Positions 10,768 through 39,771 of a stretch of DNA of 64,000 nt are shown here, one piece after another. The translations under genes were made by a program, and so were the position numbers. The stretch comes from Rhodoligotrophos defluvii (GTDB taxonomy: Bacteria > Pseudomonadota > Alphaproteobacteria > Rhizobiales > Im1). The notes beneath the pieces are model-generated. The model was given only the letters and a program-made list of their open reading frames with translations, was not told where the DNA came from and searched no databases. How positions within the stretch are numbered: position 1 is the first letter of the stretch; every line of letters begins with the position of its first letter. The stretch spans positions 272 through 64,271 of the forward strand of contig NZ_SZZM01000001.1 in assembly GCF_005281615.1 (NCBI RefSeq). The letters are read 5' to 3'.

Positions 10768-10840
10768 GCCAATACAGTGCTGCAATCGAGTTCATGTGTT
10801 GACGACCCAAAGAGTAGACCAACCGCAAAGCAAGGACATT

Positions 10841-14399: not shown

Positions 14400-14929
14400 C
14401 TTGTGGATCCCACGCTCGAATGTTCCAGCGCCTCGATCGCCGTCCATATCGTTCGCACCCAGTGAACGGCCTCGAAAGGCTTGCCGTCATCCACACGTAC
14501 CCAGTGTCCGCTGCGGTCATCCGCACCGCAGCCGGGGACCCAAGAGATAACGGCCGTTTCGCCAGCGGCATTTCGGCCAATTAGTGTCTCGCCATCGTGG
14601 GGTGCGGCGGTCATCGGATGGATTGTCTCGGCCGCGTTGAACTCCTCCTCGGGTGACGGGAGCATGTGCTCTTGTCTGTGGGAGGGCGCGTCAGCTTCAG
14701 CCCTCCACCGGCGAGACGAACGATCGAGACTGTTGTTTAGGGAAATGTGTTTGGCCAAAAGGCTGCGCAAGTCCGCCTCGACCGAGATTCCGTCCGCAAA
14801 CGCGTAGATGAGCAGGCGCGCCTGGGCGGTCTCGATATCCAAATCGCGGTCAGGTCCGATGACTCGAAACTCGGTAAGCAGCCGTTCGATCATCGTCAGG
14901 TTGTCGGAAGTGAGATGGTTGGAAGACAT
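14396..14929 (-). CDS. Hypothetical protein with a Trp-rich C-terminal half
   Basis: 177 residues from an ATG with a strong AAGGAGGAC ribosome site. The N-terminal 75 residues are helical ('NLTMIERLLTEFRVIG...'). The C-terminal half contains 'IHPMTAAPHDGETLIGRN', 'ISWVPGCG', 'GHWVRVDDG' and 'AVHWVRTI'. This pattern of PxxDG and spaced Trp residues recalls short beta-rich proteins common in Rhizobiales ('...APRDGTWILA...W...'). No function can be given. It shares its 5' region with the micro-ORF at 25829-25903 (see the repeat entries). Confidence 0.65.
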   Translation of the reverse strand: MSSNHLTSDNLTMIERLLTEFRVIGPDRDLDIETAQARLLIYAFADGISVEADLRSLLAKHISLNNSLDRSSRRWRAEADAPSHRQEHMLPSPEEEFNAAETIHPMTAAPHDGETLIGRNAAGETAVISWVPGCGADDRSGHWVRVDDGKPFEAVHWVRTIWTAIEALEHSSVGSTR

Positions 14930-15008
14930 AATGTCCTCCTTAGGTCAGGGCTAGGGCGCAAAGGCCACCCTCAATCGACGGCGCCCGTGCAAGTTAACCG
15001 CCGACATT
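14926..15008 (-). promoter_or_regulatory. Leader/promoter element, copy A
   Basis: On the minus strand this reads GTCGGCGG (15004-14997), then CGATTGAGGGT about 20 bases on, then an AAGGAGG ribosome site and ATGTCTTCC. A second, diverged copy with the same order of blocks lies at 25895-25985. The shared blocks before the ribosome site may be a promoter or a leader RNA element. It controls the 14929 gene and its coupled partner. Confidence 0.5.
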
Positions 15009-15066
15009 TTCACCATACGCTTCTTCTGCGTTTGCCGCAAAGTGATTCAGTCGCACAATCGTCGAA

Positions 15067-18000
15067 TCACCTTAAATCGAGGCTGTGTTTGAGTCCGTCC
15101 AGCGGAACGCGCACATAGACTCCTAGGTTCTGCAAAGCCTCGTTGTCCATCACTGCGGACCATGTATCCGAACCTCCTTTCATCGTATTGTCCACGCGGA
15201 TCTCGTAGCGGGTTGAACCCACCTGCACGGTGGCTTCGAAACCCGGCCAGGCCGACGGGATACACGGATCAACAACGAGGAATTCACCCTCGCGCCGGAT
15301 GCCCAGAATGCCTTCAATACCCGAACGATACATCCACGCGGCCGAGCCGGTGTACCAGGTCCATCCGCCGCGGCCGACATGTGGCGCAACGGAATAAACG
15401 TCGGCGGCAACGACATAGGGCTCTACCTTGTAGCGTTCGCTCTCCTCGGGCGTAAGCGCATGGTTGATGGGATTGAGCAGTGCGAACAGATCGTGCGCCT
15501 TGTCGCCCGCACCCGCTTTCGCAAAGGCCAGGATCGCCCACATGGCCGCATGGCTGTACTGGCCTCCATTTTCGCGCAGGCCCGGCGGGTAGCCCTTGAT
15601 GTAGCCGGGGTCGCGCGGCGTCTTGTCGAAGGGGGGCGTGAACAGAAGTGCCAGGCCATCTTCACGGCGGATGAGATGCTTTTCCAGCGACGCCATCGCC
15701 GTGGCCGCCCGAGCCGGGTCGGCGGCGCCCGTCAGGATGGCCCAGGACTGGGCTATGGAGTCGATCCGGCATTCCTCGCTGTCCTTGGAGCCGAGCCAGG
15801 TGCCGTCGTCGAAGGTCGCGCGGCGATACCATTCACCGTCCCACGCGTGCGCCTCAAGCGCCTCGCGCACCGAGGCCGCGTGGGCCCGCCAGCGTTCGAT
15901 ACGGCTTGGGTCGCGACCTTCCGCCAATGGCGCGAACAGCTCGATGGTGCGCGTGAGCAGCCAGCCGAGCCAGACGCTCTCGCCCTTGCCGCCTTCGCCG
16001 ACGCGGTTCATGCCGTCGTTCCAGTCGCCCGTGCCCATAAGGGGCAGGCCAAGCGCGCCCGTGAGTTCGAGGCACTGGTCGAGGCCGCCGGCGCAGTGTT
16101 CGAACAGCGAGGCGGATTCGGCCGCCTCCGTGGGATGAAAGAAGGCGTCGTGCTCGCCTGGTCCAAGCGGTGGACCCTCGAGAAACGGGATGGTCTCCTC
16201 CAGAATGGCGCTATCACCCGTGGCATTCACGTAGGTCGCCGCCGCGAATGCCAGCCAGACGCGGTCGTCCGAAATCCGCGTGCGGACGCCTTGCCCGGAT
16301 TGCGGCAGCCACCAATGCTGAACGTCGCCTTCGACGAACTGGCGGCCGGCCGCACGCAGGAGATGGCGCCGCGTCTCTTCGGGCCTTGCGAGCACCAGGG
16401 CCATTCCGTCCTGAAGCTGATCGCGGAAACCATAAGCGCCGCTCGCCTGATAGAAGGCCGAGCGCGCCCAGATGCGGCAGGCGAGCGTCTGATAGAGGAG
16501 CCAGCCATTGAGCATGATGTCCATGGCGCGGTCCGGTGTCTTGACCTGGACCGCCTGCAAAAGGCACGTCCAGTGATCCGTCACCTCCTGGAGAACGGCA
16601 TCGAGATCGATTGCGCGATAGTGCGTAAGCAGCGCCTGGACCTCTTCCTGCGAGCCGCACTGCCCGAAAAACGAGACAATTTCGACCGTCTCGCCCGCGC
16701 CGATCTCGATCGTCTGCTGGAGCGCCGCGCAGGGGTCGAGCCCGGCACCCGTCGTCCCCGACAGCGGCAGATCGCTGGCGAGCGCGCGAGGCGCCGACGG
16801 GTTGCCGTAGCGGCCGAGGAATTCCGTCCGGTCGGCCGTCCAGGCGGTCTGCCGTCCGCAGAGGTCGGCAAAGGCAATGCCATCGGACGAATTGATGCTC
16901 CAGGGATTGCGCGCCAGCATCGCGCCGGTGTCCGCGTCGATCTCAGACACCAGGAAGGGTGCCGTGGCGCTGCGCGAGGTGCCGAGCACCAGCTCCGCAT
17001 AGCTCGTGACAGACAGGCGCCGCGGCCGGCCGGAAAGGTTTCGAAGGGTCAGGCGCGATATCTTGACGGGGTCGGACAGAGGTACGTATTGCAGGAGATC
17101 GAGCGCGATGCCGTTCGCCTCGTGCTCGAAGCGGCTGTAGCCGAAACCGTGGCGCGAGACATAGGTGCCGCCGCCACGGATCGGCCGGGCGGTCGGGCTC
17201 CACAGGTCGAGGGTCTCCTCGTCGCGGATGTAGATCGTCTCTCCGCTCGGATCGACGACGGGATCATTCGACCATGGGGTGAGCTGGTTCTCGCGGCTGT
17301 TTTGCGCCCAGGTATAGCCGTTTCCCTCCGCCGAGACCTGGAAGCCGAAACCTGGATTGGCGATCACATTGATCCATGGCGCGGGCGTGACGGCGCCTCC
17401 CTCAAGGATCGTCACATACTCCCGTCCGTCCTTATCAAAGCCGCCGAGCTCATTGAAGAACTCGAGCGGAGACGTGTGCGGCACTGAGGGCTCGGAGATC
17501 GGGCGCGCAGGCTCTTGCAGGACGGAGACGAGGGGTTGATCGACGGGTGCGTTCGGCACATGATCGAGATGCTCTTCTATCGATCCACGTCGCGCTGAGA
17601 GCGTGACACGGGCGATCGAATGGAGCCGGGCGCGCGCATCGGCGCTCATCAGATCCGCGCGAAGTGCAAAGACAGAGCCTTGCGCCAGCTCCAATCCGAA
17701 ATGCGGCCGCGACTGGCTGCTGCGCACAGCCGTCTCGATGGCGATCTGCAGATCCTGTGTATAGGAGGATGCGCGCTCGTTGACGATCACCAGGTCGACG
17801 GCGAGGCTTTTCATGCGCCAATATTCGTGAGCGCGCAGCAACTGGCGGACCTGGGCCATGTCTTCGGGATCGTCTATGCCCAGCAAGACGATCGGCAGGT
17901 CGCCGGAGATGGCGAGATGCCACAGGCCGGATTGCGAGCCGGCACCGCGGACAATTTCCTCCGACGGCGCCCTGTAGCGCGGGTCGGCGTAGAGGATGGG

Positions 18001-21000
18001 TGCGGCCAGGCGTTGAAAGTCCGCGGCCTCTCCGGCATCGACATCAAGGTGGCGAAGCTGGACCTGCGCCTGGGTCCACGCCAATGTCCTGGCGCGTTCG
18101 AACGCGCTGCGATCATGGTGCTTGTCGATCATGTCCATGAGCTCGGCGCGCGACGATGCGACGATAGTCCAGAAGGCGATGCGCGCGACCTTTCCGGGCG
18201 CGATCCTCACGCCCTGGCGCAGCGAAAAGATCGGATCGAGAACCGTCCCCACCGTGTTCGAGAGCGCTTCATCTTCCGCCATTGCCGCTGCAGTGCGCAT
18301 GGTATGGCCGCGCCCGATGAAGCGGGCCCGGTCGGTCTCGTATTGCGGATCGGAGACGATCTCCCCATCGACGACGGCGAGATGTGCAGCCCAAACCTCC
18401 GGTTCGGCCTGCGAACGCCTGCGCCGCGTTGCGATGAGCGCGCCGAATTCGGCGGCATGTTCGGTCTGCACAAACATCTTGGAGAACGCCGGATGCGCCG
18501 TGTCGGCGGCCGGCGGCGCAAGGACGATTTCGGCGTAAGACGTTACTTCGATCTCGCGCGTCTGCCGCCCTCCATTGCTCAAGGACACGCGGCGCACCTC
18601 GCAATCGTCTTCGCCGGAAACCAGAATGTCCATTGTGGTCGTCAGCCTGCCATCGCGGCGTATAAACTGGGCGCGATCCTCATCGAAGATGACTTCGCGA
18701 CTGTTCCCCTCGACGCCGAGAGGCTGGGCACCGGCGGACCAGACCTCCCCGCTTTGGACATCGCGCAGGAAGATGAAGGTACCCCAGTCGTCGCGGGTGG
18801 CATCTTCTCGCCAGCGCGTGACGGCGATATCGCGCCAACGGCTGTAACCTGCGCCGGCGGCCGTCAACATTACCGCATAGCGGCCGTTCGATAGCAACTG
18901 GGTGACCGGTGCGCCCTCTGTGGTCGCGGTAACGCGGCGCGAGGTGGGGATTTTCGCAACCGCCGTGGCTGGGGATACTTTTACCTCTTCGGCCTTCGGA
19001 TGGGCGATCGCAACGTTGCGGGGCATGCGTTCCTGCAGCAGGAGTTCGCAGGCCTGGATCATCGGCTCGCGATGGAAACGGGCGCGCATCTCGCCATCGT
19101 GCAGCGTGTTGGCGATGGCGACGATGATCATGCCCTGATGATGGGCCATGAAGGCGCGTACGATGGCTACGTTCTTTTTCTCGGGAAGTCGGGAGCGGGT
19201 GAAATCGAGCGCTTCGAAGAAGCCGTAGCGTCCACTGGCGCCCATTTGCGCGAGACGGGCGTAGTTCTCGCGCGCGCCGTGCGGGTCTATCATCGCAGCG
19301 AGCCCGGTCGCGTATGGCGCGATCACAATGTGTTCAGAGAGACCGCGCTTCAGACCGAGCCCCGGAACGCCGAAGTTGGAGTACTGATACGTCAGTTCCA
19401 TGTCGCGCGCGTAAAAGGCGGACTCGGATACCCCCCATGGAATGCCGAGCGACCGTCCGTAAGCCTGCTGGCGCTCCACCACCAGCCGATTGGTCTGTTC
19501 AAGCAGGCTGCCTGCGGGAGCGCGTATGACGAGCGACGGCATGAGATATTCGAACATCGAGCCGGACCAGGAGATGAGTGCCGACGAGTTTGCGAGTGGC
19601 GTCGCCGTCCGCCCCAGGCGAAACCAGTGCCGTGTCTCGACATCGCCTTTGGCGATGGCGAAAAGGCTGGCAAGCCGGGCTTCCGAAGCGAGCAGATCGT
19701 AACAGCTCGGGTCGAGGCTATCGTCGGCGAGGGAGTATCCGATCGACAACAGCTTGCGTTCGGGATCGAGAAGAAAGGCGAAATCCATCGCCAGCGCCAT
19801 CTCGCGCATACCTGCGGCAAGTGCCCGAAATCGGCCTTTCAGAGCGTGGTCCGCGCCTCGGTCGCGCGCCTGTTCGGACACAGTCTTCTTGATGGCCTCG
19901 ATCCAGAAGACGAGATCCGATGCACCGTCGTCGATACCCTTCGGGATCATGTCGCGCGCCACGCCGGCGGCTTTGTCCGCCAGCCGCGACAGGGAGGGAG
20001 ACAGTGCGTCTAGCGTCAGTGGGCCATTCAGCTGGGCTTCCATGTCGTCGAGCAGCAGGGCGAACCGCGCTCCACGGTCGTTGCGAGCGATAGACAGAGC
20101 GTCAAACGCTTGGCGGGCCAATTGGAGATTATCACGCATGCCGAGCCGGGCATTCGGCGCAGCGCTGTCGTTCGCCCATGCCTCGCATGCATTGGCGAGC
20201 GCGATCAGATGCCCGGCGAGGTTTCCGCTATCGACCGATGAGATATAGGCGGGTTCCAAGACACGCAGGTCCTGTGTCCCGTACCAGTTGAAGAAGTGGC
20301 CCTTGTGTCGTGGAAGCTTGCGCATGGTCTGCAACGCGGCTTCAAGCCGCTCCACGGTCTCGAGCGTACCGGCCCAGCCGAAGTCGCGGGCGGCAACTGC
20401 GGAGATGAGATAGAGCCCGATATTGGTAGGCGATGTCCTGTGCGCGACGACCGGCTTTGGATCCTCCTGGAAATTGTCCGGGGGCAGCATGTTGTCCTCG
20501 GGCGTCACGAAGGTTTCGAAAAAGCGCCAGGTGCGACGTGCGATGAGGCGCAGTTCGGTCGCGTCCTGATCGGAGATCGCAAGCCGCGGTCCGGCTTTCG
20601 GCGATCGGCTTGCCCACAAGGCGAGCGCCGGGGCGGCCAGCCACAACAGCGCGAAGGGCAGGATCAGCGGCCAGGAGGAGGGCGAAAGCGCCATCGCGCC
20701 AACTGCGATTGCAAGCCCGAGCAGCGTACCGGATGCCATGTGGCGATAGAATCCAGCGAAGTTCAGGCGCGGGCTTCCCTTCGACTGCGCGGCAGTGGTC
20801 CATTCCAACAGATCGCGGCGGGTCCAGGTGAGCCGGACCAGCGTTCTGACAATGGCATCCACCATTCGCCACGCATGGTCGGGCAGGAAAACGATGGAAA
20901 GGACGCTCTGGATAGCTGCGAGCCGCAGGTCTGCGGCAAGCATCGCAAAGTGATTGCGCATGCGAGTGCCGGCGCGGAGCGGCACGAGGGTGAAGAAAAT

Positions 21001-23568
21001 CGGCAGGAAGGCCGGGATCGCGACGGCCACTAGGAGGAGCGACGTTCCCGTCACCGCGGCCGGCACCGGCATCAGCCACGTAACACCCAGAGCAAGGAGC
21101 GTGAACGGCGCCAACAGCGACCGCCTCAGATTGTCCAGCATCTTTCCACGGCCGATGGATGGGATCGCAAAACGTCCGCTTCGCAGCCCTGTCGCCCAGG
21201 GAAGTAGTTGCCAGTCTCCGCGCGTCCAGCGATGCTGGCGTTTGGCGGCGACGTCGTATCGGGACGGGAACTCTTCGATCACCTCGACATCGGAAGCCAG
21301 GCCGGCGCGGGCGAACACGCCCTCGAAGAGATCGTGGCTGAGCATGGTGTTCTCCGGCACGCGGCCGGACAAGGACGCCTCGAAGGTGTCGACATCGTAG
21401 ATGCCCTTGCCGGTATAGGTGCCTTCACCGAAAAGATCCTGGTACACGTCCGAGGCGGCAGCGGCGTAGGGATCGATTCCTCCGGGGGCGGAGAAAACAC
21501 GTTGATAGAAGGATCCTTCGCGGCCGACCGGAAGCGAGGGGGTGACGCGCGGCTGGAGAATGCCATAGCCGTCAACGACACGCTGCTCGGCATCGCTGAA
21601 GCGCGGTCGGTTGAGCGGATGCGCCATCTTGCCGATCAGACAATGCGCGGCATCGCGCGGCAGCCGCGTGTCGGCGTCCAGCGTGATGACGTAGCGCACA
21701 TCTGGCGGCACCTGCGGCGGCCTCCCGCCGATGGGCATGAAGGTGGTGTCGTCAGCGCCGCGCAGAAGCCGGTTCAGTTCGTGCAGTTTTCCACGCTTGC
21801 GTTCCCACCCCATCCATTTGCCTTCGCCCGGGTTGAAGACGCGGCGCCGATGCAGAAGCAGAAACCTGTCCCCGCCGGCAGCGGGTTCGTGACGCCGGTT
21901 GAGTGCGGCGATCGCTTCGGCGGCTATGCCGAGCAGTCGGGCATCGTTCTCCATAACTTCCTGGTCCGCGTCCGTTCCATCGCTGAGGAGCGCGAAGACG
22001 AGGTCGCCGCCAACGCCGGAAAGGTGGTGGACCTCGAGCCGTTCCACCTGCTCTAGAAGATCGGCTTCACTGGTGAGAAGCGTCGGCACCGCGACGAGCG
22101 TTCGCATGGATTCGGGAACGCCCTGCTTGAGCGCAAGGCCGGGCAGGATCGTCGCGCCGAAACTCCAGGTCATCGCACGGTTGACGAGGGCGGTCGCCAC
22201 CTCGCTCGCGGGGAGAAATCCGATCAGGGCGAACAGCACGAGCCAGTCGGTGTCGAGCCCGGAGCGCGAAAGCGCCCACAGTGCGACGGCCAGCAACATC
22301 GCCGTTACGAGCAGGATCGACCCGATATAGCCGCCAAAGCCGAGGCGCGTGTTGAAGCGGCTGATGCGCAGCTGCGGGGGCGGGCGAAACCGGATCGCCC
22401 ACTCGAGGGCCGCACGGCCCTGGGCGATAAGGTGGTAGCCCGGATCACTGGCGCGCTCCGCGCCAACTGCGTCCTCGGCTACAGCCGCCGCTTGGCGCGC
22501 AGCATCGAGTGCGTGGTCCACAATCTCGAGTTCCGAGAACGAGGAGCCGCGGGCGAGTTGCTCGATGGCGTTCCGGTAAAGGTCGCGGGTCGGGAAATCC
22601 ATGTCGGCAAAGGCGCTTCCCGCCCGCAGCCGCTCGTCCACTAGGCTGACGCTCTCAAACAGCTCGGCCCAGTCGATATCGGAGATCAGCCGCATGCTGG
22701 TGACGATGTTGCGAACGGTGACATTGGATGCGCCCTGCCTCTGCTGGGCATGCTGCACCACGTCGTCGACCGAAACGCCTTGATGTGCGAGACGCTCCTC
22801 CAGCCATCCGAGCGCCGGCGTCGTTTCAGGATCCTGGTTCCTCAACTGTTTGGCCAACTGCGCGGCGAAAACTTCGGACAACGGCTCCGGTGAGCGGGAG
22901 GCGATGTCCGTTTCGAGCGCCGTCCTGCCGCAGCCCGACAGGAGAAGCCGCTCGGCCAGCGCTGCCGCATCCGCGCGCGCCGCGCGGCCCACGGTCATCT
23001 GATCGGCCAGCCGGCGCAGGTTCTCGATGAGGACCCAACGCAGGGTGATCGCTACTGCCCACAGCTCGCCGATCGTCAGGGGCTGAACCCGCTGATAGGC
23101 CACCAGAAACCGCCGCAGCTTCTCCCGGTCGAAGAGGCTGTCGGTATGCGCGACAAAGGCCCAGGCAAGCCCGAGAACCCGCGGATAGCCCGCAAACGGC
23201 CCTTCTCTCAGTTTCGGCAATTGGCGATAATAACCGGGAGGCAGGTCATCCCTGATCTCGTGGATTTGCTCCTCGACCAGATGATAATTGTCCAGCAGCC
23301 ATTCCGCGGCAGGGACCACCTCCCTGCCGCTCTCCAGTTCCGCGGCACTCGCCCGATAGGCGGCAAGCAGAACAGCCGCATTGTTATTGAGCCTCTTGTG
23401 CAGGGACAGGACGGCTGGCGGGCGGTCGGTCACCGGCTGCGCGGCGGCGAGGCTTTGTGCGTGCTGCTCGAGCCGCTCCACGCTGAAAAGCTCCTCCCTC
23501 ACGGGCGCCGCATCGTTCCATGGCGGCAATGAAGAGCGACGTAAGTGTAGGCGAGGGGTCGATTTCAA
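15067..23568 (-). CDS. ndvB: Cyclic beta-1,2-glucan synthase
   Basis: About 2833 residues, close to the roughly 2830 of ChvB/NdvB. It makes cyclic beta-1,2-glucan from UDP-glucose at the inner membrane. Order: N-terminal region beginning 'PPWNDAAPVREELFSVERLE', membrane helices, a GT84 glycosyltransferase with 'YVITLDADTRLPRD' near residue 630, more helices, a glucoamylase-like domain, then tandem carbohydrate-binding and GH94 phosphorylase domains with 'GTGDWNDGMNRVG' near residue 2520 that set ring size. A TTG at 23568 is preferred as start: it has GGAAAGG six bases upstream and gives the family length, whereas an ATG at 23826 would overlap the upstream gene. In rhizobia the glucan works in osmoadaptation and host interaction. 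Confidence 0.95.
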   Translation of the reverse strand: MKSTPRLHLRRSSLPPWNDAAPVREELFSVERLEQHAQSLAAAQPVTDRPPAVLSLHKRLNNNAAVLLAAYRASAAELESGREVVPAAEWLLDNYHLVEEQIHEIRDDLPPGYYRQLPKLREGPFAGYPRVLGLAWAFVAHTDSLFDREKLRRFLVAYQRVQPLTIGELWAVAITLRWVLIENLRRLADQMTVGRAARADAAALAERLLLSGCGRTALETDIASRSPEPLSEVFAAQLAKQLRNQDPETTPALGWLEERLAHQGVSVDDVVQHAQQRQGASNVTVRNIVTSMRLISDIDWAELFESVSLVDERLRAGSAFADMDFPTRDLYRNAIEQLARGSSFSELEIVDHALDAARQAAAVAEDAVGAERASDPGYHLIAQGRAALEWAIRFRPPPQLRISRFNTRLGFGGYIGSILLVTAMLLAVALWALSRSGLDTDWLVLFALIGFLPASEVATALVNRAMTWSFGATILPGLALKQGVPESMRTLVAVPTLLTSEADLLEQVERLEVHHLSGVGGDLVFALLSDGTDADQEVMENDARLLGIAAEAIAALNRRHEPAAGGDRFLLLHRRRVFNPGEGKWMGWERKRGKLHELNRLLRGADDTTFMPIGGRPPQVPPDVRYVITLDADTRLPRDAAHCLIGKMAHPLNRPRFSDAEQRVVDGYGILQPRVTPSLPVGREGSFYQRVFSAPGGIDPYAAAASDVYQDLFGEGTYTGKGIYDVDTFEASLSGRVPENTMLSHDLFEGVFARAGLASDVEVIEEFPSRYDVAAKRQHRWTRGDWQLLPWATGLRSGRFAIPSIGRGKMLDNLRRSLLAPFTLLALGVTWLMPVPAAVTGTSLLLVAVAIPAFLPIFFTLVPLRAGTRMRNHFAMLAADLRLAAIQSVLSIVFLPDHAWRMVDAIVRTLVRLTWTRRDLLEWTTAAQSKGSPRLNFAGFYRHMASGTLLGLAIAVGAMALSPSSWPLILPFALLWLAAPALALWASRSPKAGPRLAISDQDATELRLIARRTWRFFETFVTPEDNMLPPDNFQEDPKPVVAHRTSPTNIGLYLISAVAARDFGWAGTLETVERLEAALQTMRKLPRHKGHFFNWYGTQDLRVLEPAYISSVDSGNLAGHLIALANACEAWANDSAAPNARLGMRDNLQLARQAFDALSIARNDRGARFALLLDDMEAQLNGPLTLDALSPSLSRLADKAAGVARDMIPKGIDDGASDLVFWIEAIKKTVSEQARDRGADHALKGRFRALAAGMREMALAMDFAFLLDPERKLLSIGYSLADDSLDPSCYDLLASEARLASLFAIAKGDVETRHWFRLGRTATPLANSSALISWSGSMFEYLMPSLVIRAPAGSLLEQTNRLVVERQQAYGRSLGIPWGVSESAFYARDMELTYQYSNFGVPGLGLKRGLSEHIVIAPYATGLAAMIDPHGARENYARLAQMGASGRYGFFEALDFTRSRLPEKKNVAIVRAFMAHHQGMIIVAIANTLHDGEMRARFHREPMIQACELLLQERMPRNVAIAHPKAEEVKVSPATAVAKIPTSRRVTATTEGAPVTQLLSNGRYAVMLTAAGAGYSRWRDIAVTRWREDATRDDWGTFIFLRDVQSGEVWSAGAQPLGVEGNSREVIFDEDRAQFIRRDGRLTTTMDILVSGEDDCEVRRVSLSNGGRQTREIEVTSYAEIVLAPPAADTAHPAFSKMFVQTEHAAEFGALIATRRRRSQAEPEVWAAHLAVVDGEIVSDPQYETDRARFIGRGHTMRTAAAMAEDEALSNTVGTVLDPIFSLRQGVRIAPGKVARIAFWTIVASSRAELMDMIDKHHDRSAFERARTLAWTQAQVQLRHLDVDAGEAADFQRLAAPILYADPRYRAPSEEIVRGAGSQSGLWHLAISGDLPIVLLGIDDPEDMAQVRQLLRAHEYWRMKSLAVDLVIVNERASSYTQDLQIAIETAVRSSQSRPHFGLELAQGSVFALRADLMSADARARLHSIARVTLSARRGSIEEHLDHVPNAPVDQPLVSVLQEPARPISEPSVPHTSPLEFFNELGGFDKDGREYVTILEGGAVTPAPWINVIANPGFGFQVSAEGNGYTWAQNSRENQLTPWSNDPVVDPSGETIYIRDEETLDLWSPTARPIRGGGTYVSRHGFGYSRFEHEANGIALDLLQYVPLSDPVKISRLTLRNLSGRPRRLSVTSYAELVLGTSRSATAPFLVSEIDADTGAMLARNPWSINSSDGIAFADLCGRQTAWTADRTEFLGRYGNPSAPRALASDLPLSGTTGAGLDPCAALQQTIEIGAGETVEIVSFFGQCGSQEEVQALLTHYRAIDLDAVLQEVTDHWTCLLQAVQVKTPDRAMDIMLNGWLLYQTLACRIWARSAFYQASGAYGFRDQLQDGMALVLARPEETRRHLLRAAGRQFVEGDVQHWWLPQSGQGVRTRISDDRVWLAFAAATYVNATGDSAILEETIPFLEGPPLGPGEHDAFFHPTEAAESASLFEHCAGGLDQCLELTGALGLPLMGTGDWNDGMNRVGEGGKGESVWLGWLLTRTIELFAPLAEGRDPSRIERWRAHAASVREALEAHAWDGEWYRRATFDDGTWLGSKDSEECRIDSIAQSWAILTGAADPARAATAMASLEKHLIRREDGLALLFTPPFDKTPRDPGYIKGYPPGLRENGGQYSHAAMWAILAFAKAGAGDKAHDLFALLNPINHALTPEESERYKVEPYVVAADVYSVAPHVGRGGWTWYTGSAAWMYRSGIEGILGIRREGEFLVVDPCIPSAWPGFEATVQVGSTRYEIRVDNTMKGGSDTWSAVMDNEALQNLGVYVRVPLDGLKHSLDLR

Positions 23569-23710
23569 GGAGTACCTTTCCAGCCCGCGCGCGCGTACGC
23601 CGCACGGGCTGATTTGTTGGAGTGTCGACTCCAATGCGGCTTCGGACAAGGCGACGGGTCGATCTTCAACTTGGATCGATCGACGATCACATACCGAGGA
23701 GATCGGTCGG

Positions 23711-24016
23711 TCAGTGGCGCCATTCGGATTGCGGCGGCAGGTCGCCTGCGACATCCACATGAGCGGCATCGCTGGCCGCCGGTAGATACTTTTCGGAGAA
23801 GCGAAGGCGCAGAAGCCGTCCGTCACCCGTCAGGAGATGGAGATCCTCGCGGCCGAATACCTGCCGCAGAGTTTCGGGAAGCATCCGGATTTCGCCGCTG
23901 CCAATCACGTCTCCCGGCTTCCTCAGGAAACCGTCAAAATCATAGATCACGCGGGCAAGTGTCTTACCCCCACCTTTCAGGACGCCGGTTCCGTGGATTC
24001 CACCTAGATGCCGCAT
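23711..24016 (-). CDS. Conserved hypothetical protein
   Basis: 101 residues, soluble, beginning 'MRHLGGIHGTGVLKGGG'. It looks like a compact all-beta protein ('ARVIYDFDGFLRKPGDVIGS', 'GEIRMLPETL', 'LLTGDGRLLRLRFSEKYLP'). I recall similar short proteins in Rhizobiales but know no function. It is the first gene upstream of ndvB on the same strand (142 bases apart) and follows the 24301 gene by six bases, so it probably belongs to that small operon. Confidence 0.65.
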   Translation of the reverse strand: MRHLGGIHGTGVLKGGGKTLARVIYDFDGFLRKPGDVIGSGEIRMLPETLRQVFGREDLHLLTGDGRLLRLRFSEKYLPAASDAAHVDVAGDLPPQSEWRH

Positions 24017-26892: not shown

Positions 26893-27102
26893 ATGAACAC
26901 TGGAACCGTAAAATTCTTCAACGCGACCAAGGGCTTCGGTTTCATCCAGCCTGACGATGGCGCTTCGGACGTTTTTGTCCATATCTCTGCCGTCGAACGC
27001 GCCGGCATGCGCACCATCGTGGAAGGCCAGAAGCTGAGCTTCGACGTTGTCCAGGACAGCCGTTCGGGCAAGAGTGCTGCGGATAACCTGCACGTTGCAT
27101 AA
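26893..27102 (+). CDS. cspA: Cold shock protein, CspA family
   Basis: 69 residues, one OB-fold cold shock domain. RNP1 is 'KGFGFIQP' and RNP2 is 'VFVHIS', the two single-stranded nucleic acid binding motifs. It would act as an RNA chaperone. The start has an AAAGGAAA ribosome site. The 260 bases upstream contain no gene and probably hold a long 5' leader, as is common for cspA. A terminator follows at 27163-27188. Confidence 0.95.
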   Translation: MNTGTVKFFNATKGFGFIQPDDGASDVFVHISAVERAGMRTIVEGQKLSFDVVQDSRSGKSAADNLHVA

Positions 27103-27162
27103 GCATTCGTCTTCGAGACGTGACCACGGATGTACTGGCACGGATCGTCGAGACGAGAGGAG

Positions 27163-27188
27163 AGGTCGGGCTTCCGCCCGACCTTTTT
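27163..27188 (+). terminator. Rho-independent terminator after cspA
   Basis: Arms AGGTCGGGC (27163-27171) and GCCCGACCT (27176-27184) close a TTCC loop and are followed by a run of T to 27188. The next gene begins 33 bases later, so read-through into it is likely to be partial or regulated. Confidence 0.85.
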
Positions 27189-27220
27189 GCTTTCAACCCT
27201 GTCGGAAGGAGACCGACGAC

Positions 27221-33162: not shown

Positions 33163-33333
33163 TGCGTTCTCCATAAGCTGTTGATGCAGCGATGATAGTT
33201 GAGCGTCGAGCACAATGCTGTAAGGTTGCCAGGACGGTCTGGCACGGCCCGGTCCATCCCGAGATTTTTTCGAGGGAGGGCGCGCTTATACGTCGTTCCG
33301 ACGTGCGCTTCGTCGTGCCAATTCTTGATCGCG
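33163..33333. other. Probable origin of transfer (oriT)
   Basis: The gap between divergent traC and traA, where oriT lies in Ti plasmids. The stretch AGGGCGCGCTTATACGTCG (33278-33295 region) resembles the nick region of RSF1010/Ti-class oriTs, in which AGGGCGC is followed a few bases on by TTATACGTC or a related sequence. A perfect inverted repeat ACGTCG-TTC-CGACGT follows at 33290-33304. The similarity to the RSF1010 class is from memory; the exact nick cannot be fixed here. Promoters for both genes must also lie in this gap. Confidence 0.65.
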
Positions 33334-36315
33334 ATGGCGATCTATCATCTTCACGTCAAGGTCATCGGCCGCAAGGCCGGGTCGAGTGCGGTGGCCTCCG
33401 CCGCCTACCGCTCGGCCTCGCGGATGCGCGACGAGCGCATCGACCGCGTGCAGGACTTTTCCGCCAAGCGCGGCGTCGTCCATTCCGAGGTACTGTTGCC
33501 TGTTGGGGCTCCAGAACACTGGTCCGACCGCGAACGGCTGTGGAACGATGTCGAGGCGTTCGAGGTCAGGAAGGACGCCCAGCTCGCCCGCGAGGTGGAG
33601 TTTGCAATCCCGCGCGAGATGACGCAGGCACAGGGCATCGAACTCGCCCGCGACTTCGCGCAGTCCGAATTTGTCCATCAGGGCATGATCGCCGATTTGA
33701 ATGTGCATTGGGATTTTGCCGAGGACGGAAGCCCCAAACCCCATGCCCATGTCATGCTCACCATGCGCGAAGTCGATGAAGACGGGTTCGGCAAGAAGCA
33801 ACGCGACTGGAACCGCACGGAGATGGTCGAGCGGTGGCGCGAACGTTGGGCCGAGCATGTCAACGAGCGGCTTGCCGACCTCGACATTGATGCCCGCATC
33901 GATCATCGCAGTCTTGAGGCGCAGGGCATAGACCTGGAGCCGCAAACACAGATCGGCGCACCCGCGCAGCGCAAAGAGGGCGAAGGCATCGAGGTCGCCG
34001 ACCGTGCCGATATGCACCGCGAGATCGCTCGCAACAATGGCGAGCGCATCATTGCCGATCCATCCGTGGCGCTGGACGCGATCACGCACCAGCAATCGAC
34101 CTTCACCCGGCGTGACATGGCGATGTTCGCGCACCGGCACAGCGATGGCATCGACCAGTTCAACGAGGTCATGGGCGCGATACGCAATTCGCCCGATCTG
34201 GTGGAGTTGGGGCAAAACGGGCGCGGTCAGGATCGTTTCACCACGCGCGACATGATCGAGGCCGAACAGCGCCTGCATCGCGCGGCAGAACTGATGGCCG
34301 GGAAGGAATTGCACGAGGTCAGCGACAGAGATCGCGAAGCCGCTTTTGCGCGTGCGGAACAACGCGGACTTGTTCTCTCCCGCGAGCAGGCCGACGCCCT
34401 GGCGCATGTCACCGATGGGCGCGATCTCGGCATTGTCGTCGGCTATGCCGGAACGGGAAAGAGCGCCATGCTCGGCGTGGCGCGCGAGGCATGGGAAGCG
34501 GCAGGCTACGAGGTGCGCGGCGTTGCCCTTTCCGGTATCGCGGCGGAGAATCTGGAAGGCGGATCGGGCATTGCGTCCCGCACCATCGCCAGCATGGAAC
34601 ATGGCTGGGCGAACGGTCGCGACATGCTCACCAGCCGCGATGTGCTTGTCATCGATGAAGCGGGCATGGTCGGCACGCGGCAGTTGGAGCGTGTTCTATC
34701 CCATGCGGCAGAAGTCGGCGCAAAGGTGGTGCTGGTCGGCGATCCGCAGCAGTTGCAATCCATAGAAGCCGGAGCAGCGTTCCGGTCGATCCATGAGCGC
34801 CACGGCGGCGTCGAAATCGAGACCGTGCGCCGTCAGCGCGAAGACTGGCAGCAGGATGCAACGCGCGATCTGGCCACCGGCAAAACCCAAGATGCGATTC
34901 ATGCCTATGACCGTCACGACATGGTGCATGAGGCGCAAACGCGGGAGCAGGCGCGTAACGATCTGATCGAGCGCTGGGACCGCGACCGGCAAGCTTCACC
35001 GGTTGCCAGCCGCATCATCCTCACCCACACCAATGCAGAAGTGCGCGAACTCAACCAAGCGGCGCGGGAGAAAATGCGCGGGGCTGGCGATCTGGGCGAG
35101 GATGTGCGCCTGACGGTTGAACGCGGCGAACGTCACTTTGCCAGCGGTGACCGTATCATGTTCCTGCAGAACGAGCGCGGCCTTGGCGTCAAGAACGGCA
35201 CGCTCGGCACTATCGAGGATATCAGCACGCAATCCATGGCCGTTCGCACCGATGACGGGCGCAGCATCGCGTTCGACCTGAAAGACTACGACCGTATCGA
35301 CCACGGCTATGCGGCCACCATCCACAAATCCCAGGGCATGACGGTTGACCGTATCCATGTTCTGGCCACACCGGGGCTCGATGCCCATTCAAGCTATGTC
35401 GCCCTGTCGCGTCACTGCGACGGTATGGATCTGCATTATGGCCGCGACGATTTTGCCAGCCAGGACAGGCTCATCTCCACCCTGTCGCGCGACCGATCCA
35501 AGGACATGGCGAGCGACTACCAGCAGCAGATCGACCCGGCTCACAGCTTTGCCGAACGGCGCGGTATCAACTTTGCCACCCGTGCCGCCGAGATCGAACG
35601 CCAACAGATGCTGGAAACTGCCCGAGACAGAATCGGCGACATCGTCTTCGACACGCGCACGGCCGGTGATGGCACAGACCGACCGGAAAGGGCGGCGGTC
35701 GGTCAGGGATTGACACAGGAGATCGAGGCGGTGGCGCACGAAGCCGGGATCGATCTGGAAGACGCTATGCGCCACGCCCGCAGAATGGCGCTCATCCGTC
35801 ACGCCCAGGCCGTCAGCAGAATCTATGCAACCGAGGACGCATGCCACAAGGTCAGCCGCGAGCAATGGAATGAACTGGTTGAAGCCCGCACGACATTCGA
35901 TGAAGTGCGCCCCTTCGGTTCAAGGGATGCGGAGGAAGCCTATTCCCGGGATGCCAGGCTTTCCCACGAGGCGGCATCGGGCAAAGTCAACCGTGCCATC
36001 CGCGCCTTCCAGCTCGAAACCGAAATCCGCACCGATCCGCAGCGGCGTGCGGATCGCTTTGTCGAACGCTGGCAGAAACTCAGCCGGGCCAGCGAGCGCC
36101 AATATGCGGCGGGTGATTATTCCGGCTACAGGTCCACGCGGGCGGAGATGGGCAACATGGTTGCGGGCCTCGAACGCGACCCGCAGATGGAATCCCTGCT
36201 CGCCAACCGCAGGCGCGAACTGGGCATCCCCTTCGACAGGGGGCTGGGTATCGGCGGCGATCTGGCCCTCAGTCATGGTCTCGGCAGGGGAAGAGGGCTG
36301 GGCATCGGAATGTAG
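33334..36315 (+). CDS. traA: TraA relaxase-helicase (MobA/MobL plus TraI-like)
   Basis: 993 residues. The start 'MAIYHLHVKVIGRKAGSSAV' and 'ASAAYRSA' are characteristic of MobQ-type relaxases; the metal-binding histidines are in 'KPHAHVML' near residue 136. A superfamily 1 helicase follows with Walker A 'GYAGTGKSA' near 370, Walker B 'VIDEAGM' near 438 and a late motif 'GYAATIHKSQGMT'. The C-terminal third is charged and helical. The enzyme nicks oriT, stays on the DNA and unwinds it. The ATG at 33334 is used rather than an earlier in-frame codon because it matches the conserved N-terminus. It is about 100 residues shorter than Ti TraA. Confidence 0.92.
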   Translation: MAIYHLHVKVIGRKAGSSAVASAAYRSASRMRDERIDRVQDFSAKRGVVHSEVLLPVGAPEHWSDRERLWNDVEAFEVRKDAQLAREVEFAIPREMTQAQGIELARDFAQSEFVHQGMIADLNVHWDFAEDGSPKPHAHVMLTMREVDEDGFGKKQRDWNRTEMVERWRERWAEHVNERLADLDIDARIDHRSLEAQGIDLEPQTQIGAPAQRKEGEGIEVADRADMHREIARNNGERIIADPSVALDAITHQQSTFTRRDMAMFAHRHSDGIDQFNEVMGAIRNSPDLVELGQNGRGQDRFTTRDMIEAEQRLHRAAELMAGKELHEVSDRDREAAFARAEQRGLVLSREQADALAHVTDGRDLGIVVGYAGTGKSAMLGVAREAWEAAGYEVRGVALSGIAAENLEGGSGIASRTIASMEHGWANGRDMLTSRDVLVIDEAGMVGTRQLERVLSHAAEVGAKVVLVGDPQQLQSIEAGAAFRSIHERHGGVEIETVRRQREDWQQDATRDLATGKTQDAIHAYDRHDMVHEAQTREQARNDLIERWDRDRQASPVASRIILTHTNAEVRELNQAAREKMRGAGDLGEDVRLTVERGERHFASGDRIMFLQNERGLGVKNGTLGTIEDISTQSMAVRTDDGRSIAFDLKDYDRIDHGYAATIHKSQGMTVDRIHVLATPGLDAHSSYVALSRHCDGMDLHYGRDDFASQDRLISTLSRDRSKDMASDYQQQIDPAHSFAERRGINFATRAAEIERQQMLETARDRIGDIVFDTRTAGDGTDRPERAAVGQGLTQEIEAVAHEAGIDLEDAMRHARRMALIRHAQAVSRIYATEDACHKVSREQWNELVEARTTFDEVRPFGSRDAEEAYSRDARLSHEAASGKVNRAIRAFQLETEIRTDPQRRADRFVERWQKLSRASERQYAAGDYSGYRSTRAEMGNMVAGLERDPQMESLLANRRRELGIPFDRGLGIGGDLALSHGLGRGRGLGIGM

Positions 36316-36810
36316 CCACACGCTGCTCCGCCTATTCGCGGTGCGCGGAATGGCTGGCCAGGATTTGGAACCGGAAGGTTCGGAACAATCCTTTGTCGCT
36401 TCCCGAGATGGGGCCGGACCTGAACCGGGCAGTCAAGGCCGCAGCCGCTTCGCGGTGGCGCGTTCCGCGCCAGCCTAGACAGCCCGCTTCACGGCCCGGC
36501 AAAGCGTGAGGAAGCAGCAAAGGCTTGGTGGGAGCGCCGGCGCTCCCTTGTGCAAGTGGTCGCCTATATTGCGGTTGATTCCAGGACAGTAGAAGCCGAG
36601 CCCGAATCACCCTGTGCCTCAACCGGAGCTGGCCTTCATCAATAATATGCGTCTATGGCGGGCCGAGTATCGGATACGACAACTATCCTATTTACCGCCG
36701 GTTGCACGCCATAGCCCTACGACGGCTAAATGTCTGTTGCACAATGGCAACTCGTTGCTCTGACTGGTCCCTGCAATTGTCAGAACCGATCAGCAGGAGG
36801 CAATGCAGCC
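36316..36810. other. Gap between traA and the AlpA-like gene
   Basis: About 495 bases. In Ti plasmids traF and traB would follow traA, but no such sequence is present. Frames on both strands are short and Arg/Pro-rich. The last 150 bases are more AT-rich and probably hold the promoter for the AlpA-like gene. Confidence 0.45.
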
Positions 36811-37026
36811 ATGCGTCAACCAGATCGTATCGTCCGCATGAACACCGTGCTTGCTCGTACCGGCCTGTCGAAGTCCACCATCTACCGCAAGATGGCCGAG
36901 GGTACGTTCCCCGCTCAATTCAAGATCAGCACCAAGAGCGCCGGATGGCGCGAATCCGACATCGACCGCTGGGTTGCCAATCCGGTCAGGTGGCGACCGG
37001 AGGAAGAGGTCGGCGATGGGCGATGA
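36811..37026 (+). CDS. AlpA family regulator / excisionase-like protein
   Basis: 71 residues from the ATG at 36811 with AGGAGG upstream. 'RIVRMNTVLARTGLSKSTIY' and 'RKMAEGTFPAQFKIS' form the winged helix-turn-helix of AlpA proteins, ending in 'GWRESDIDRWV'. These proteins activate integrase or act as directionality factors in genomic islands. Here it is encoded with a serine recombinase 1.1 kb downstream, so control of excision is a reasonable guess. The stop overlaps the next gene. Confidence 0.88.
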   Translation: MRQPDRIVRMNTVLARTGLSKSTIYRKMAEGTFPAQFKISTKSAGWRESDIDRWVANPVRWRPEEEVGDGR

Positions 37027-37330: not shown

Positions 37331-37358
37331 TTGACATCTTATGAGATGTCTCTATCAT
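37331..37358 (+). promoter_or_regulatory. Promoter with overlapping inverted repeat for the TA pair
   Basis: TTGACA (37331-37336), 16-base spacer, TATCAT (37353-37358): a near-consensus housekeeping promoter. An inverted repeat GACATCT-N4-AGATGTC (37333-37350) overlaps the -35 box and most of the spacer, the position expected for an autorepressor operator. The predicted transcription start is at about 37365-37366, at the ATG of the toxin, so the mRNA may be leaderless. Confidence 0.75.
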
Positions 37359-37365
37359 GCTTTCC

Positions 37366-37785
37366 ATGAGACTGGTTCTGGACACCAACGTGATCGTGGC
37401 GGCGTTCCGCAGCCGCAACGGGGCAAGCAACCTGCTCTTGCGGCTGATTGATCGCGGTGCGGTGACGCCGCTTTGCTCGACGGCGCTGTTTCTCGAATAT
37501 GAAGCAGTGTTGAGCCGGGAGGAAACCCGGCAGGTGACAGGCCATAGACTGGAAGATGTGGCTTCGGTGATGAGCGCGCTTGCTGCCGTGTCCGAGGGCG
37601 TTGACATCTCGTTTCGGACGCGACCGATGCTGTCTGATGTCGCCGATGAAATGGTGTTGGAAGCCGCATTGAACGGACAGGCCGAGGCCATAGTGACGCA
37701 CAACGTTAAGGATTTCCGCCCGGCGCTCAAGCTGGGCGTCACCATTGCAACACCGGGAGAGATCGTCAGGAGGCTGAACCCATGA
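37366..37785 (+). CDS. PIN domain toxin (putative ribonuclease)
   Basis: 139 residues from the ATG at 37366. The PIN fold acidic residues are in 'MRLVLDTNVIVAAF' (Asp6), 'FLEYEAVLSR' (Glu) and 'AIVTHNVKDF' (Asp near the end); the family cleaves RNA with a metal ion. An ATG at 37357 lies within the -10 box and is unlikely. The stop overlaps the start of the downstream ribbon-helix-helix gene by four bases. Toxin-first order is the reverse of most PIN systems. It probably stabilises the mobile element. Confidence 0.87.
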   Translation: MRLVLDTNVIVAAFRSRNGASNLLLRLIDRGAVTPLCSTALFLEYEAVLSREETRQVTGHRLEDVASVMSALAAVSEGVDISFRTRPMLSDVADEMVLEAALNGQAEAIVTHNVKDFRPALKLGVTIATPGEIVRRLNP

Positions 37786-38036
37786 CGCAGACCCAACGCT
37801 ACAAATACCCGCTGCAACTGCCGCAGTCGCTCAAGGAGACGGCGGCGCGTTTGGCACAAGAGGATGGCGTGTCGCTCAATCAATGGATCGTGTCGGCGGT
37901 CGCGCAGAAGATTGGTGCGGTGGAAACCGCCGCTGATTTTCTCAAGGTGCGCGCAGGCACGGCTAAGCGGGGTGATCTGACAAGACTTTTAGACCGGGCA
38001 CCGGACGTGCCGCCGACACCGGAGGATGCAATCTGA
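37782..38036 (+). CDS. Ribbon-helix-helix antitoxin
   Basis: 84 residues. 'YKYPLQLPQSLKETAARLAQ' followed by 'EDGVSLNQWIVSAVAQKIG' is a beta strand plus two helices of the Arc/MetJ/HicB type, which binds DNA as a dimer. The remaining acidic tail ('LDRAPDVPPTPEDA') could wrap the toxin. It is translationally coupled to the PIN gene and probably represses the promoter at 37331-37358 through its inverted repeat. Confidence 0.83.
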   Translation: MTQTQRYKYPLQLPQSLKETAARLAQEDGVSLNQWIVSAVAQKIGAVETAADFLKVRAGTAKRGDLTRLLDRAPDVPPTPEDAI

Positions 38037-38112: not shown

Positions 38113-39738
38113 ATGACCCGCGCAGCATTTTATGCCCGTTATTCGTCGGACAACCAGCGGGAAGCCTCGATTGAGGATCAATTGCGGCTATGCCGTGAGC
38201 GCGCGGAGCGCGAGGGATGGCAGGCCGTAGCAAATTATACCGACGCTGCAATTTCCGGTTCCAGCATGATCCTCCGTCCGGGGATCAAAACCCTCCTCGC
38301 GGATGCTCAGGCTGGGCGGTTCGACGTTGTTCTGGCCGAAGCCCTCGACAGGCTATCCCGTGACCAGGAAGACATCGCTGCATTATTCAAGCGGCTTCGC
38401 TTCGCCGGTGTTCGCATCGTTACCCTGTCAGAAGGAACGGTGGATGAGCTGCATGTCGGCTTGAAAGGCACCATGAACGCTCTCTTCCTTCGTGACCTGG
38501 CTGCCAAGATCAGGCGTGGCCAGTCCGGCCGTGTCATCAGCGGATATTCCGCCGGGGGCCTGTCCTACGGATATCGTGTGGTCAAGAAGCTCGACGAACG
38601 AGGGGAGCCTATCCGAGGCCTCCGCGAAGTGGATGAGGAACAGGCTGGTGTAATCCGGCGCATCTTCCAGGAGTTTGCCTCAGGACGTTCCGCCCGGACC
38701 ATCGCTGCCAGCCTTAACCGCGACGGCATTCCCTCTCCATTCGGTCGAGAATGGGGAGTCTCTACGATCAACGGCAATCTTAAACGTCGCAGCGGCATAC
38801 TCTACAACGAGGCCTATATCGGGCTTCTGATCTTTAATCGCGTTCAGATGGTCAAGGACCCGGAAACCGGCAAGCGCATCTCCCGCCCGAACCCGTCAGA
38901 ACAGTGGCAAGTGGTGGAGGCTCCTCACCTGCGCATCGTCAGCGACGAGCTATGGAACGCCGTCCAGGCACGCAAGAAGCTCTACGGTGGAACCCGGCTT
39001 CATAAACGCCGAAGGCCGAAGCATATGTTCTCCGGTCTTGTGCGGTGCGGTTGCTGTGGCGCTGCCTACACCATCAAGTCCCAGGATCAGCTTGCCTGCA
39101 CAGCGCATAGGGAACGCGGGACTTGCTCGAACAACCGAACTGTCCGTGTGCCTGACCTCGAACGCCGCGTGCTCGAAGGCATCAAGCAGCGACTACTCGC
39201 TCCCGATGCAGTTGCCGAATTTCTCGCTGAGTATCATGCCGAAAGGAAGCGCCTGAACGCGAAGATGCGACATGATCGGCAGCAGATTGGCACGCGGCTT
39301 GCCAATCTCGAAAGGCAAATCGCGAATATCATCGACGCGATTGCCGACGGTGTCGCAACGACAGGCATGAAGTCGCGCCTGATCGAGATGGAGGCAGAGA
39401 AGGGGCGCCTTGCCGCCGATCTGGCAGCGATCTCGGATGCCAGCGATGTCGTGGAATTGCATCCAGCTTCGATTGAGGTTTACCGCCGCAGAATCGCCGA
39501 ATTGCAGGAGGCGCTGCACTCCAGCGAAGATGATCGCCGGGCGGCGGTCAACGCCATTCGTTCACTTGTTACCAGCATCGAGGTGATACCGCGCGAAGAA
39601 CGTGGAAAATTTGACCTGACCGTCAACGGCGCACTGGCAGAACTGCTAAACCTGCCTCGCAGAAAACCGGGCGAACTCCCAAACACTGCAATGGTGGTAG
39701 CGGAGGAGGGACTTGAACCCCCGACACGCGGATTATGA
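38113..39738 (+). CDS. Large serine recombinase (site-specific integrase)
   Basis: 541 residues. Resolvase-type catalytic domain at the N-terminus with 'AFYARYSSDNQREASIEDQL'; the nucleophile is the Ser11 of Y-x-R-x-S. The Recombinase domain ('GYSAGGLSYGYRVV', 'SGRSARTIAASLNRDGIP') is followed by a zinc ribbon with CGCC and two further Cys near residues 310-345 and a coiled-coil. The last 15 codons ('VAEEGLEPPTRGL' end) are antisense to the tRNA-Met gene. Large serine recombinases insert elements by single-strand-pair exchange at short att sites, so this one most likely integrated the element into tRNA-Met. Confidence 0.93.
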   Translation: MTRAAFYARYSSDNQREASIEDQLRLCRERAEREGWQAVANYTDAAISGSSMILRPGIKTLLADAQAGRFDVVLAEALDRLSRDQEDIAALFKRLRFAGVRIVTLSEGTVDELHVGLKGTMNALFLRDLAAKIRRGQSGRVISGYSAGGLSYGYRVVKKLDERGEPIRGLREVDEEQAGVIRRIFQEFASGRSARTIAASLNRDGIPSPFGREWGVSTINGNLKRRSGILYNEAYIGLLIFNRVQMVKDPETGKRISRPNPSEQWQVVEAPHLRIVSDELWNAVQARKKLYGGTRLHKRRRPKHMFSGLVRCGCCGAAYTIKSQDQLACTAHRERGTCSNNRTVRVPDLERRVLEGIKQRLLAPDAVAEFLAEYHAERKRLNAKMRHDRQQIGTRLANLERQIANIIDAIADGVATTGMKSRLIEMEAEKGRLAADLAAISDASDVVELHPASIEVYRRRIAELQEALHSSEDDRRAAVNAIRSLVTSIEVIPREERGKFDLTVNGALAELLNLPRRKPGELPNTAMVVAEEGLEPPTRGL

Positions 39739-39771
39739 TTCCGCTGCTCTAACCAGCTGAGCTACTCCGCC
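39695..39771 (-). tRNA. tRNA-Met (CAT)
   Basis: A 77-base cloverleaf on the minus strand with CCA encoded at the 3' end (39697-39695). Acceptor GGCGGAG pairs with CTCCGCT, the D-arm contains AGCTCAG, the anticodon CAT is at 39737-39735 in a loop closed by GCGGA/TCCGC, and the T-arm contains GTTCAAGTC. The G1-U72 pair and overall sequence fit elongator Met rather than initiator. The 3' 44 bases are overlapped by the end of the serine recombinase gene on the other strand. Confidence 0.95.

Follow-up and report, generated by a model that had tools for sequence, protein, structure and literature searches.

The stretch of DNA analysed here, the window, comprises 64,000 nucleotides from Rhodoligotrophos defluvii and carries a gene for a large serine recombinase whose 3' end runs into a tRNA-Met gene on the opposite strand. 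An N-terminal Resolvase domain (PF00239, 6e-25) is followed in the encoded protein by a Recombinase domain (PF07508, 8e-24) and a zinc ribbon (Zn_ribbon_recom PF13408, 2e-11), which is the domain composition of large serine recombinases, or serine integrases. Sequence relatives in the PDB are the TP901-1 integrase and SPbeta YokA. By its sequence the product is a serine integrase, and catalysis of attP x attB recombination is predicted for it. The features of the gene and of the ends of its element are as follows.

38113-39738, plus strand: large serine recombinase, integrated form, 541 aa (ORF and Pfam)
39695-39771, minus strand: tRNA-Met(CAU), attB (ARAGORN; Rfam 65 bits)
39695-39707, plus strand: right att core TGGTAGCGGAGGA, the same 13 bp at both element ends
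10747-10759, plus strand: left att core TGGTAGCGGAGGA, the other end of a 28,948-bp element; 12-13-mer of the tRNA 3' end
10760-10802, plus strand: stranded 3' piece of the recombinase gene, with the tail codons ...DRYRQYSAAIEFMC and a TGA stop for the predicted circle
10649-10746, plus strand: 98-bp remnant of another serine recombinase gene (its 3' end), G001 type (blastn against G001 region L057)

An earlier note on this DNA had claimed that the recombinase frame enters the tRNA gene by 44 bases, and the coordinates of the ORF and of the ARAGORN and Rfam matches confirm this observation (39695-39738). The last 15 codons were said to come from the tRNA complement; they are indeed read from the tRNA antisense, but the shared 44 nt hold 14 codons plus the stop. 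This TGA stop (39736-39738) lies, as their complement, opposite U33 and the first two bases of the tRNA-Met anticodon. Among eight homologues measured, the identical 44-nt overlap with an intact tRNA-Met was found in five (L005, L007-L010) and was absent at L006, L011 and L012. As relatives keep the same register, an overlap by chance was ruled out. Besides itself, the tRNA region matched only tRNA-Phe, -Trp and -Arg genes in its own genome; no second copy of tRNA-Met(CAU) was found in this search, and restoring the tRNA on integration therefore matters.

The 12-13-mer from the 3' end of tRNA-Met has one further occurrence in the window, at 10747-10759. The two 13-bp cores are identical, lie 28,948 bp apart and correspond to the end of the tRNA acceptor stem plus CCA; the sequence after the left junction is CCGCTACCGCCAATACAG. 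In the attP site of a serine integrase, two half-sites form an inverted repeat around a central dinucleotide, and the common core is short. When the right arm was joined to the left arm, the predicted attP formed an inverted repeat about GG, with matches at 18 of 25 half-site positions. GG was the only centre tested with >=10/20 matches (16/20 there), and none of 2000 shuffles attained the observed total. An inverted repeat about GG with a 13-bp core thus fits the expectation for a serine-integrase attP, in which the GG at 39705-39706 would be the crossover dinucleotide.

The alignment of a Nitratireductor element with window positions 10726-39707 consists of three blocks, of 24.9 kb (91%), 0.4 kb (69%) and 3.1 kb (84%); its right limit is the last base of the core and its left limit lies 21 bp outside the core. 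The left ends of related elements have the arm and the reading frame in common with the window element. In a genome of the same family (G003), near the same neighbour genes, tRNA-Met is present and a close recombinase homologue is absent. The same holds beside the tRNA-Met of a genome of the same genus (G002), in another neighbourhood, and in a further genome of the genus (G001) the same tRNA is occupied by a different serine recombinase, 45% identical. The identical cores at both ends, the limits of the Nitratireductor alignment and the tRNA without a close recombinase homologue beside it in G002 and G003 bear out the proposal that tRNA-Met is attB. The companion claim, that the 3' half of the tRNA is both the crossover region and the source of the last codons of the enzyme, misplaces the emphasis, since only the 13-bp core is common and the codons past the crossover are host tRNA, not a contribution of the element. 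With blastn, the left flank matched G001 region L057 at 79% over 113 columns, core included, and we interpret the remnant at 10649-10746 as the leftover of an older accreted element. Given this gene end just left of the element, the site seems to have served for integration on more than one occasion. The Nitratireductor locus L006 was considered as proof of a circle and rejected: there the right end next to a window-type recombinase meets the left end of another element, of group II, which makes it a tandem junction. No recognisable core was seen in the homologues L012 and L127 and in the phage L183.

Within the element, the following genes were recognised.

37357-38036, plus strand: PIN-domain toxin and HicB/YlcI-like partner beside the recombinase
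36730-37026, plus strand: AlpA-like small DNA-binding protein (Pfam Phage_AlpA 6e-18)
33325-36315, plus strand: Ti-type TraA / MobQ relaxase-helicase
10841-31354, no strand assigned: cargo, consisting of an HflK/HflC-like SPFH pair, a 2919-aa GH94-domain protein (which we take to be cyclic-glucan-synthase-like), a fatty acid desaturase, a zinc metallopeptidase and an NhaA antiporter

The two genes beside the recombinase likely form a toxin-antitoxin pair, the AlpA-like protein is a candidate directionality factor, and the relaxase suggests that the element is mobilizable. The SPFH pair and the 2919-aa GH94 protein (10841-23826) are a large cargo for a relaxase-bearing element. An Rfam match inside the element (27062-27192) corresponds to the alphaproteobacterial sRNA ar35 (46.9 bits, gathering 45). 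Toxin-antitoxin-like genes (PIN/HicB-like, VapBC, RelBE, MazF) also adjoin the recombinase in several other elements (L178, L181 and others), and on a Komagataeibacter plasmid the recombinase neighbour is annotated as a tRNA(fMet)-specific VapC, while the core of this recombinase matches the end of tRNA-fMet. When the window recombinase was searched against its own genome, no second match lay within the element; a short, distant DsiA-like protein could be missed in this way.

In its integrated form, the recombinase has 541 aa and ends ...VVAEEGLEPPTRGL. With the ends joined in silico (39707|10760), a circle-form protein of 545 aa is predicted that ends ...VVAEDRYRQYSAAIEFMC. The two forms agree over residues 1-531 and first differ at residue 532. 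Beyond the crossover, the ten residues of the integrated form (EGLEPPTRGL) are encoded by host tRNA and not by element sequence; the tail codons of the element itself lie about 29 kb off, at its other end (10760-10802). The joined ends thus support, as a sequence prediction, the earlier guess that excision alters the end of the protein. On the circle, attP would lie inside the 3' end of the recombinase gene, which would be complete, with the codons for its native C-terminal tail. When the element inserts at the 3' end of tRNA-Met, this gene would be severed at codon 531/532. The domains recognised by Pfam would stay on the tRNA side and gain a 10-residue tRNA-antisense tail with its stop over the anticodon, and the native tail codons would end up 29 kb off, where the element has its other end. 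Since the core carries the 3' end of the tRNA, the element would restore CCA and the 3' end of the acceptor stem to the tRNA.

Excised tails were compared within five groups: group I (window, Aliihoeflea, Rhodovulum and Aurantimonas) and groups II, III, IV and V with eight, four, three and two sequences. The other group I tails (Aliihoeflea VAEERYRQYSVALNFIC, Rhodovulum VAEERCRQYSATTTFVC, Aurantimonas VAEERCRHYSAMTKFVC) are of equal length, have the same stop and show several conservative changes; DNA identity is 69% in the tail versus 22% in the 45 bp past the stop. All eight left ends of group II encode 28 residues (e.g., VAEDRYRQSPHLPEIRYRLRLFSRLLAA), with a pN/pS of 0.35-0.43. Conservation in this group reaches about 75 bp beyond the crossover and drops at the stop codon, from 80% to 34%. 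Identity falls from 64% to 24% after the stop in group III and from 83% to 47% in group IV, and in group V (two sequences) it does not fall (85% in the tail, 87% beyond). Pooled over the five groups, at least 23, 27 and 51 changes are needed at the first, second and third codon position, respectively (p = 0.0003); these counts ignore shared ancestry. Taken alone, group II has a significant third-position excess (p = 0.004 and 0.02), that of group I is not significant (p ~0.08 and 0.13), and group III has almost none (5/7/8). A tail that is conserved up to its stop, with a fall beyond it and an excess of third-position changes, is probably translated and under selection in the excised form. Therefore, judged from these comparisons, the excised-form tail looks like the native one and the integrated-form tail like a makeshift.

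How widely this layout occurs was assessed on 75 homologous hits (E <= 1e-100), which include the window copy and come from 65 of the 397 genomes of the order; L159 is a re-measured gene of L146, which leaves 74 distinct genes, and L166 and L170 are broken genes. A tRNA is overlapped in 48 of the 75 hits, nearly always tRNA-Met. The exact 44-nt overlap with a CAU-anticodon tRNA occurs in 42 hits, namely with 26 initiator tRNA-Met and 16 other CAU tRNAs; a short motif served to separate elongator from initiator, and two of the tRNAs placed with the elongators, those of L148 and L150, may be tRNA-Ile(CAU). Six hits have other registers or tRNA-His or tRNA-Thr targets. The remaining ones have a full tail but only the 3' half of a tRNA (5), run off their contigs (4) or are of other kinds (18), and many of the latter, read by eye, cross a tRNA-end-like core outside any tRNA. 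The core is crossed in three reading frames (overlaps of 44 nt, of 22 and 58 nt, and of 114 nt), and the excised tails have 7-77 residues, with a sequence that varies between lineages. In the tree, the window clade adjoins a large clade made up mostly of recombinases at initiator tRNAs (support 93/88) and stands apart from another clade that targets elongators. On plasmids, for which 58 records matched, the 44-nt overlap was found in 6 of the 12 loci opened (Sphingobium, Novosphingobium, Haematobacter, Shinella, Ensifer and Loktanella). Relatives on the Rhizobium phage RR1-A and on a circular 159-kb Komagataeibacter plasmid cross the core and end in FVA and LVA, respectively; no tRNA was found beside them in the ~4.5-kb stretches opened, and both look like the free form. 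Thus, the arrangement is common in this recombinase family and not unique to the window.

Some loci of the survey show other arrangements. VAGPRN-like tails (L104, L105, L111, L112, L115, L116, L121, L122) were rejected as attP forms, as they belong to one clade with L100 and, by eye, are read from the opposite end of the element into a displaced tRNA 3' end. L136, L139, L140 and L096 were likewise discarded as other attP forms, since by eye a second element seems to have split the tRNA there in its anticodon loop. Such a split, at or just past the recombinase stop, is also seen at L106 and L118; L118 crosses the core in another frame and the others keep the full tRNA-encoded tail. The ORF after the split tRNA of L136 presumably resembles the start of a tyrosine integrase. 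At L011 (5001-6929, a Rhizobiaceae MAG), a 94%-identical recombinase ends in mutated tRNA-like sequence and continues into other DNA; with its degraded tRNA-like end this locus was unusable. One or two older att cores lie in frame within the C-termini of L107, L108 (own genome, C3) and L182, and also of L106, L131, L137, L142 and L143 (e.g., QVKMVAGAGSNLHLLPEQVKMVAGTGFEPVTFRL); this would fit a protein that lengthens by taking in its former tails as it gains a new att site further downstream. Two serine recombinase genes stand tail to tail at G204:C2:85388-88639 (L104, L124), where they meet over one palindromic att site, and at G386:C118:935-4050 (L146). The left-end type of these pairs forms the clade of its own named above (L100, L104, L105, L111, L112, L115, L116, L121, L122); possibly, they are elements with one recombinase at each end.

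Many excised tails end in Ala. In the recombinase frame this is the case for 24 of 44 left ends versus 9 of 87 in the two wrong frames (p = 1e-7); for comparison, Ala endings were counted in 49 of 387 long ORFs and in 370 of 3298 random frames. The left ends came from pattern searches. For the elongator pattern, the reversed control gave 10 matches versus 7 for the real pattern in one search and 14 versus 20 in another; for the initiator pattern, it gave 2 versus 35. Such chance hits make left ends without a same-contig partner or a conserved tail less sure, and because of those in the elongator searches the Ala count was redone on 17 stricter left ends (same-contig partner in the right orientation, or natural junction). 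Ala endings make up 10 of these 17, 8 of 11 when counted by lineage (p = 8e-6) and 6 of 9 with related lineages merged (p = 2e-4). From the elongator search with 20 places, 17 were taken as left ends and L194, L200 and L067 were dropped. In the initiator search, 22 of 30 places with loci were used and five more places without loci were left out; excluded were L232, L212, L233, L213, L235 and L217, which lie inside recombinase 3' ends, and the two-recombinase junctions L216 and L237. The whole set (27 of 49 Ala; 19 of 30 lineages) adds five hand-picked gene ends without tRNA to the 44 left ends and leaves out L137, L152 and L169, which have no Ala ending, so that the 44-end and 17-end counts are the cleaner tests. 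Several lineages are related, and the Ala endings are not all independent. A composition effect was rejected by the wrong-frame, long-ORF and random-frame comparisons together with the stricter set. Endings seen include LAA, LVA, FVA, AAA, SAA and LTA. G001, G106 and G318, which cross the core in another frame, end in LVA, LTA and LVA in that frame, the left end of G106 being on another contig. No Ala ending occurs among the integrated tails of the 44-nt class, whose last residues are -GL, -RL or -PL. The own lineage of the window ends in FMC, FIC or FVC (window FMC), with Cys and not Ala.

ssrA-like tags are known on mycobacteriophage repressors and integrases, and integration removes the tag of the repressor, according to passages of PMC8092301, PMC9934374 and PMC4557955. 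Together with the Ala endings, this makes a degradation tag the leading guess for the recombinase family: in many lineages the excised tail may, by analogy, resemble an ssrA-type Ala tag. We consider it probable (about 85%) that the window encodes a serine recombinase with attP inside its own gene, that its native tail is swapped for tRNA antisense and that the swap matters, most likely via lifetime or activity of the enzyme. The excised-form tail would shorten enzyme life or tune activity, and integration would take it away; of the two, an effect on protein stability is the probable one. This reading draws on both element ends, their identical core, the predicted attP, the change of frame and the conservation of the tail to its stop in four of five groups; that excision occurs, that the circle-form tail is produced and that the swap is important, we infer. 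Possible, though more doubtful than an even bet, is the wider proposal of a self-editing recombinase, in which the conserved and often ssrA-like circle tail makes the enzyme short-lived or integration-specific and integration swaps in a neutral tRNA-antisense tail. The DNA rearrangement would then give the enzyme an inbuilt switch for memory and timing that works in a single step, and tRNA-targeting serine recombinases of Alphaproteobacteria would have kept it, in more than one reading frame.

Several other explanations were weighed against the proposed tail swap. Potentially, attP merely abuts the end of the gene for compactness, the tails are irrelevant and their swap is without consequence. 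Tails that differ between lineages in length (7-77 residues) and sequence would agree with this, as would group V without its drop past the stop and the three frames across the core, which imply that no single tail is needed. However, irrelevant tails should not be conserved to their stop and much less beyond it, as in four of five groups, nor should the pooled changes favour third positions or Ala endings be enriched in the recombinase frame and not in wrong frames, and we regard this explanation as unlikely. Still less probable is that the conserved left end is a DNA signal, such as an attP arm or a binding site for a directionality factor, rather than coding sequence. Its first 20-25 bp would be the attP arm, with strong half-site symmetry, but in group II conservation extends ~75 bp past the crossover to fall where the stop codon lies, and the pooled changes lean towards third codon positions (23/27/51).

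The two remaining alternatives concern the tail of the integrated form. The earlier note, in its stronger version, saw in the tRNA-antisense tail an adaptation of the element, selected as protein, and the register common to 42 of 75 hits would suit this. Yet what is read as codons here is host tRNA sequence held constant by the function of the tRNA, and relatives use other frames and other tRNAs (His, Thr), which makes such an adaptation very improbable. That the ORF is over-called and the true protein stops before the tRNA has next to no probability: no supporting point was found, no intact gene with a recognisable core was seen to stop before it among the sequences read by eye, and the excised tail is conserved beyond the core.

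The attP-in-gene tail swap would provide comparative evidence for the idea, put forward in 2011 for DsiB, that the true C-terminus of an integrase exists only on the circle, and extend it to a family at tRNA-Met genes. It also qualifies a review in which recombinases that cut their own gene are confined to archaea. Serine integrases of this kind that are taken from genomes would bring the tRNA-encoded tail and not the circle-form one, and the swap would have a regulatory consequence that is possibly general. If the tail is a degradation tag, it would be a compact natural coupling of recombinase level to integration state.

Integration of serine recombinases into tRNA genes is called rare in the excerpted text of PMC3218068, in line with the earlier remark that tRNA genes are an unusual target for them, and the term tRNA is absent from the main text of a large survey of serine-integrase sites (PMC10083194). 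In searches of open-licence papers, we found no description of circle-form tails for the family of the window recombinase. The phiRSM phages (tRNA-Ser) and mycobacterial AICEs (tRNA-Leu) resemble the window element in that a serine recombinase uses a tRNA gene, and in phiRSM the core, of 13 nt, is likewise identical to the 3' end of the tRNA; in contrast to the window, the phiRSM serine recombinase is small and its attP lies between two ORFs (PMC3816273, PMC3218068). The excerpted descriptions in these two papers mention no tail swap. Closest is DsiB of the Dehalococcoides ssrA (tmRNA) islands, a serine recombinase of ~540 residues whose 3' end overlaps the att site and continues into a neighbouring island or the antisense strand of tmRNA (PMC3146451). 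According to passages of that paper, the gene always overlaps attL, and its authors suggest that it is fully functional maybe only on the circle. As in DsiB, the window ORF crosses the att core into the target RNA gene; the target, however, is tRNA-Met and not tmRNA, and DsiB is CcrB-like and accompanied by a second, small recombinase, DsiA. The C-terminal part of DsiB is called divergent, and the same passages name no conserved circle-form tail or degradation tag. In the integration-dependent immunity of mycobacteriophages, as far as described in excerpts of PMC4557955, PMC9934374, PMC8092301 and PMC6109161, attP also lies inside the 3' end of a gene, different frames cross one core and some targets are tRNA genes. 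There, however, the repressor gene is cut and the integrase is of the tyrosine type, whereas in the window attP lies in the serine recombinase gene and the recombinase itself is cut. The suicidal integrases of SSV type in archaea share with the window enzyme a recombination site inside the integrase's own gene, which integration cuts; these are tyrosine recombinases in two pieces that are thought to be inactive (excerpted text of PMC8371274), whereas the window enzyme, a serine recombinase, would exchange only its tail and keep its recognised domains together. Thus, the principle of attP within a gene and the overlap of DsiB were already known, and new here are the predicted circle tail of serine recombinases that target tRNA-Met and its exchange on integration.
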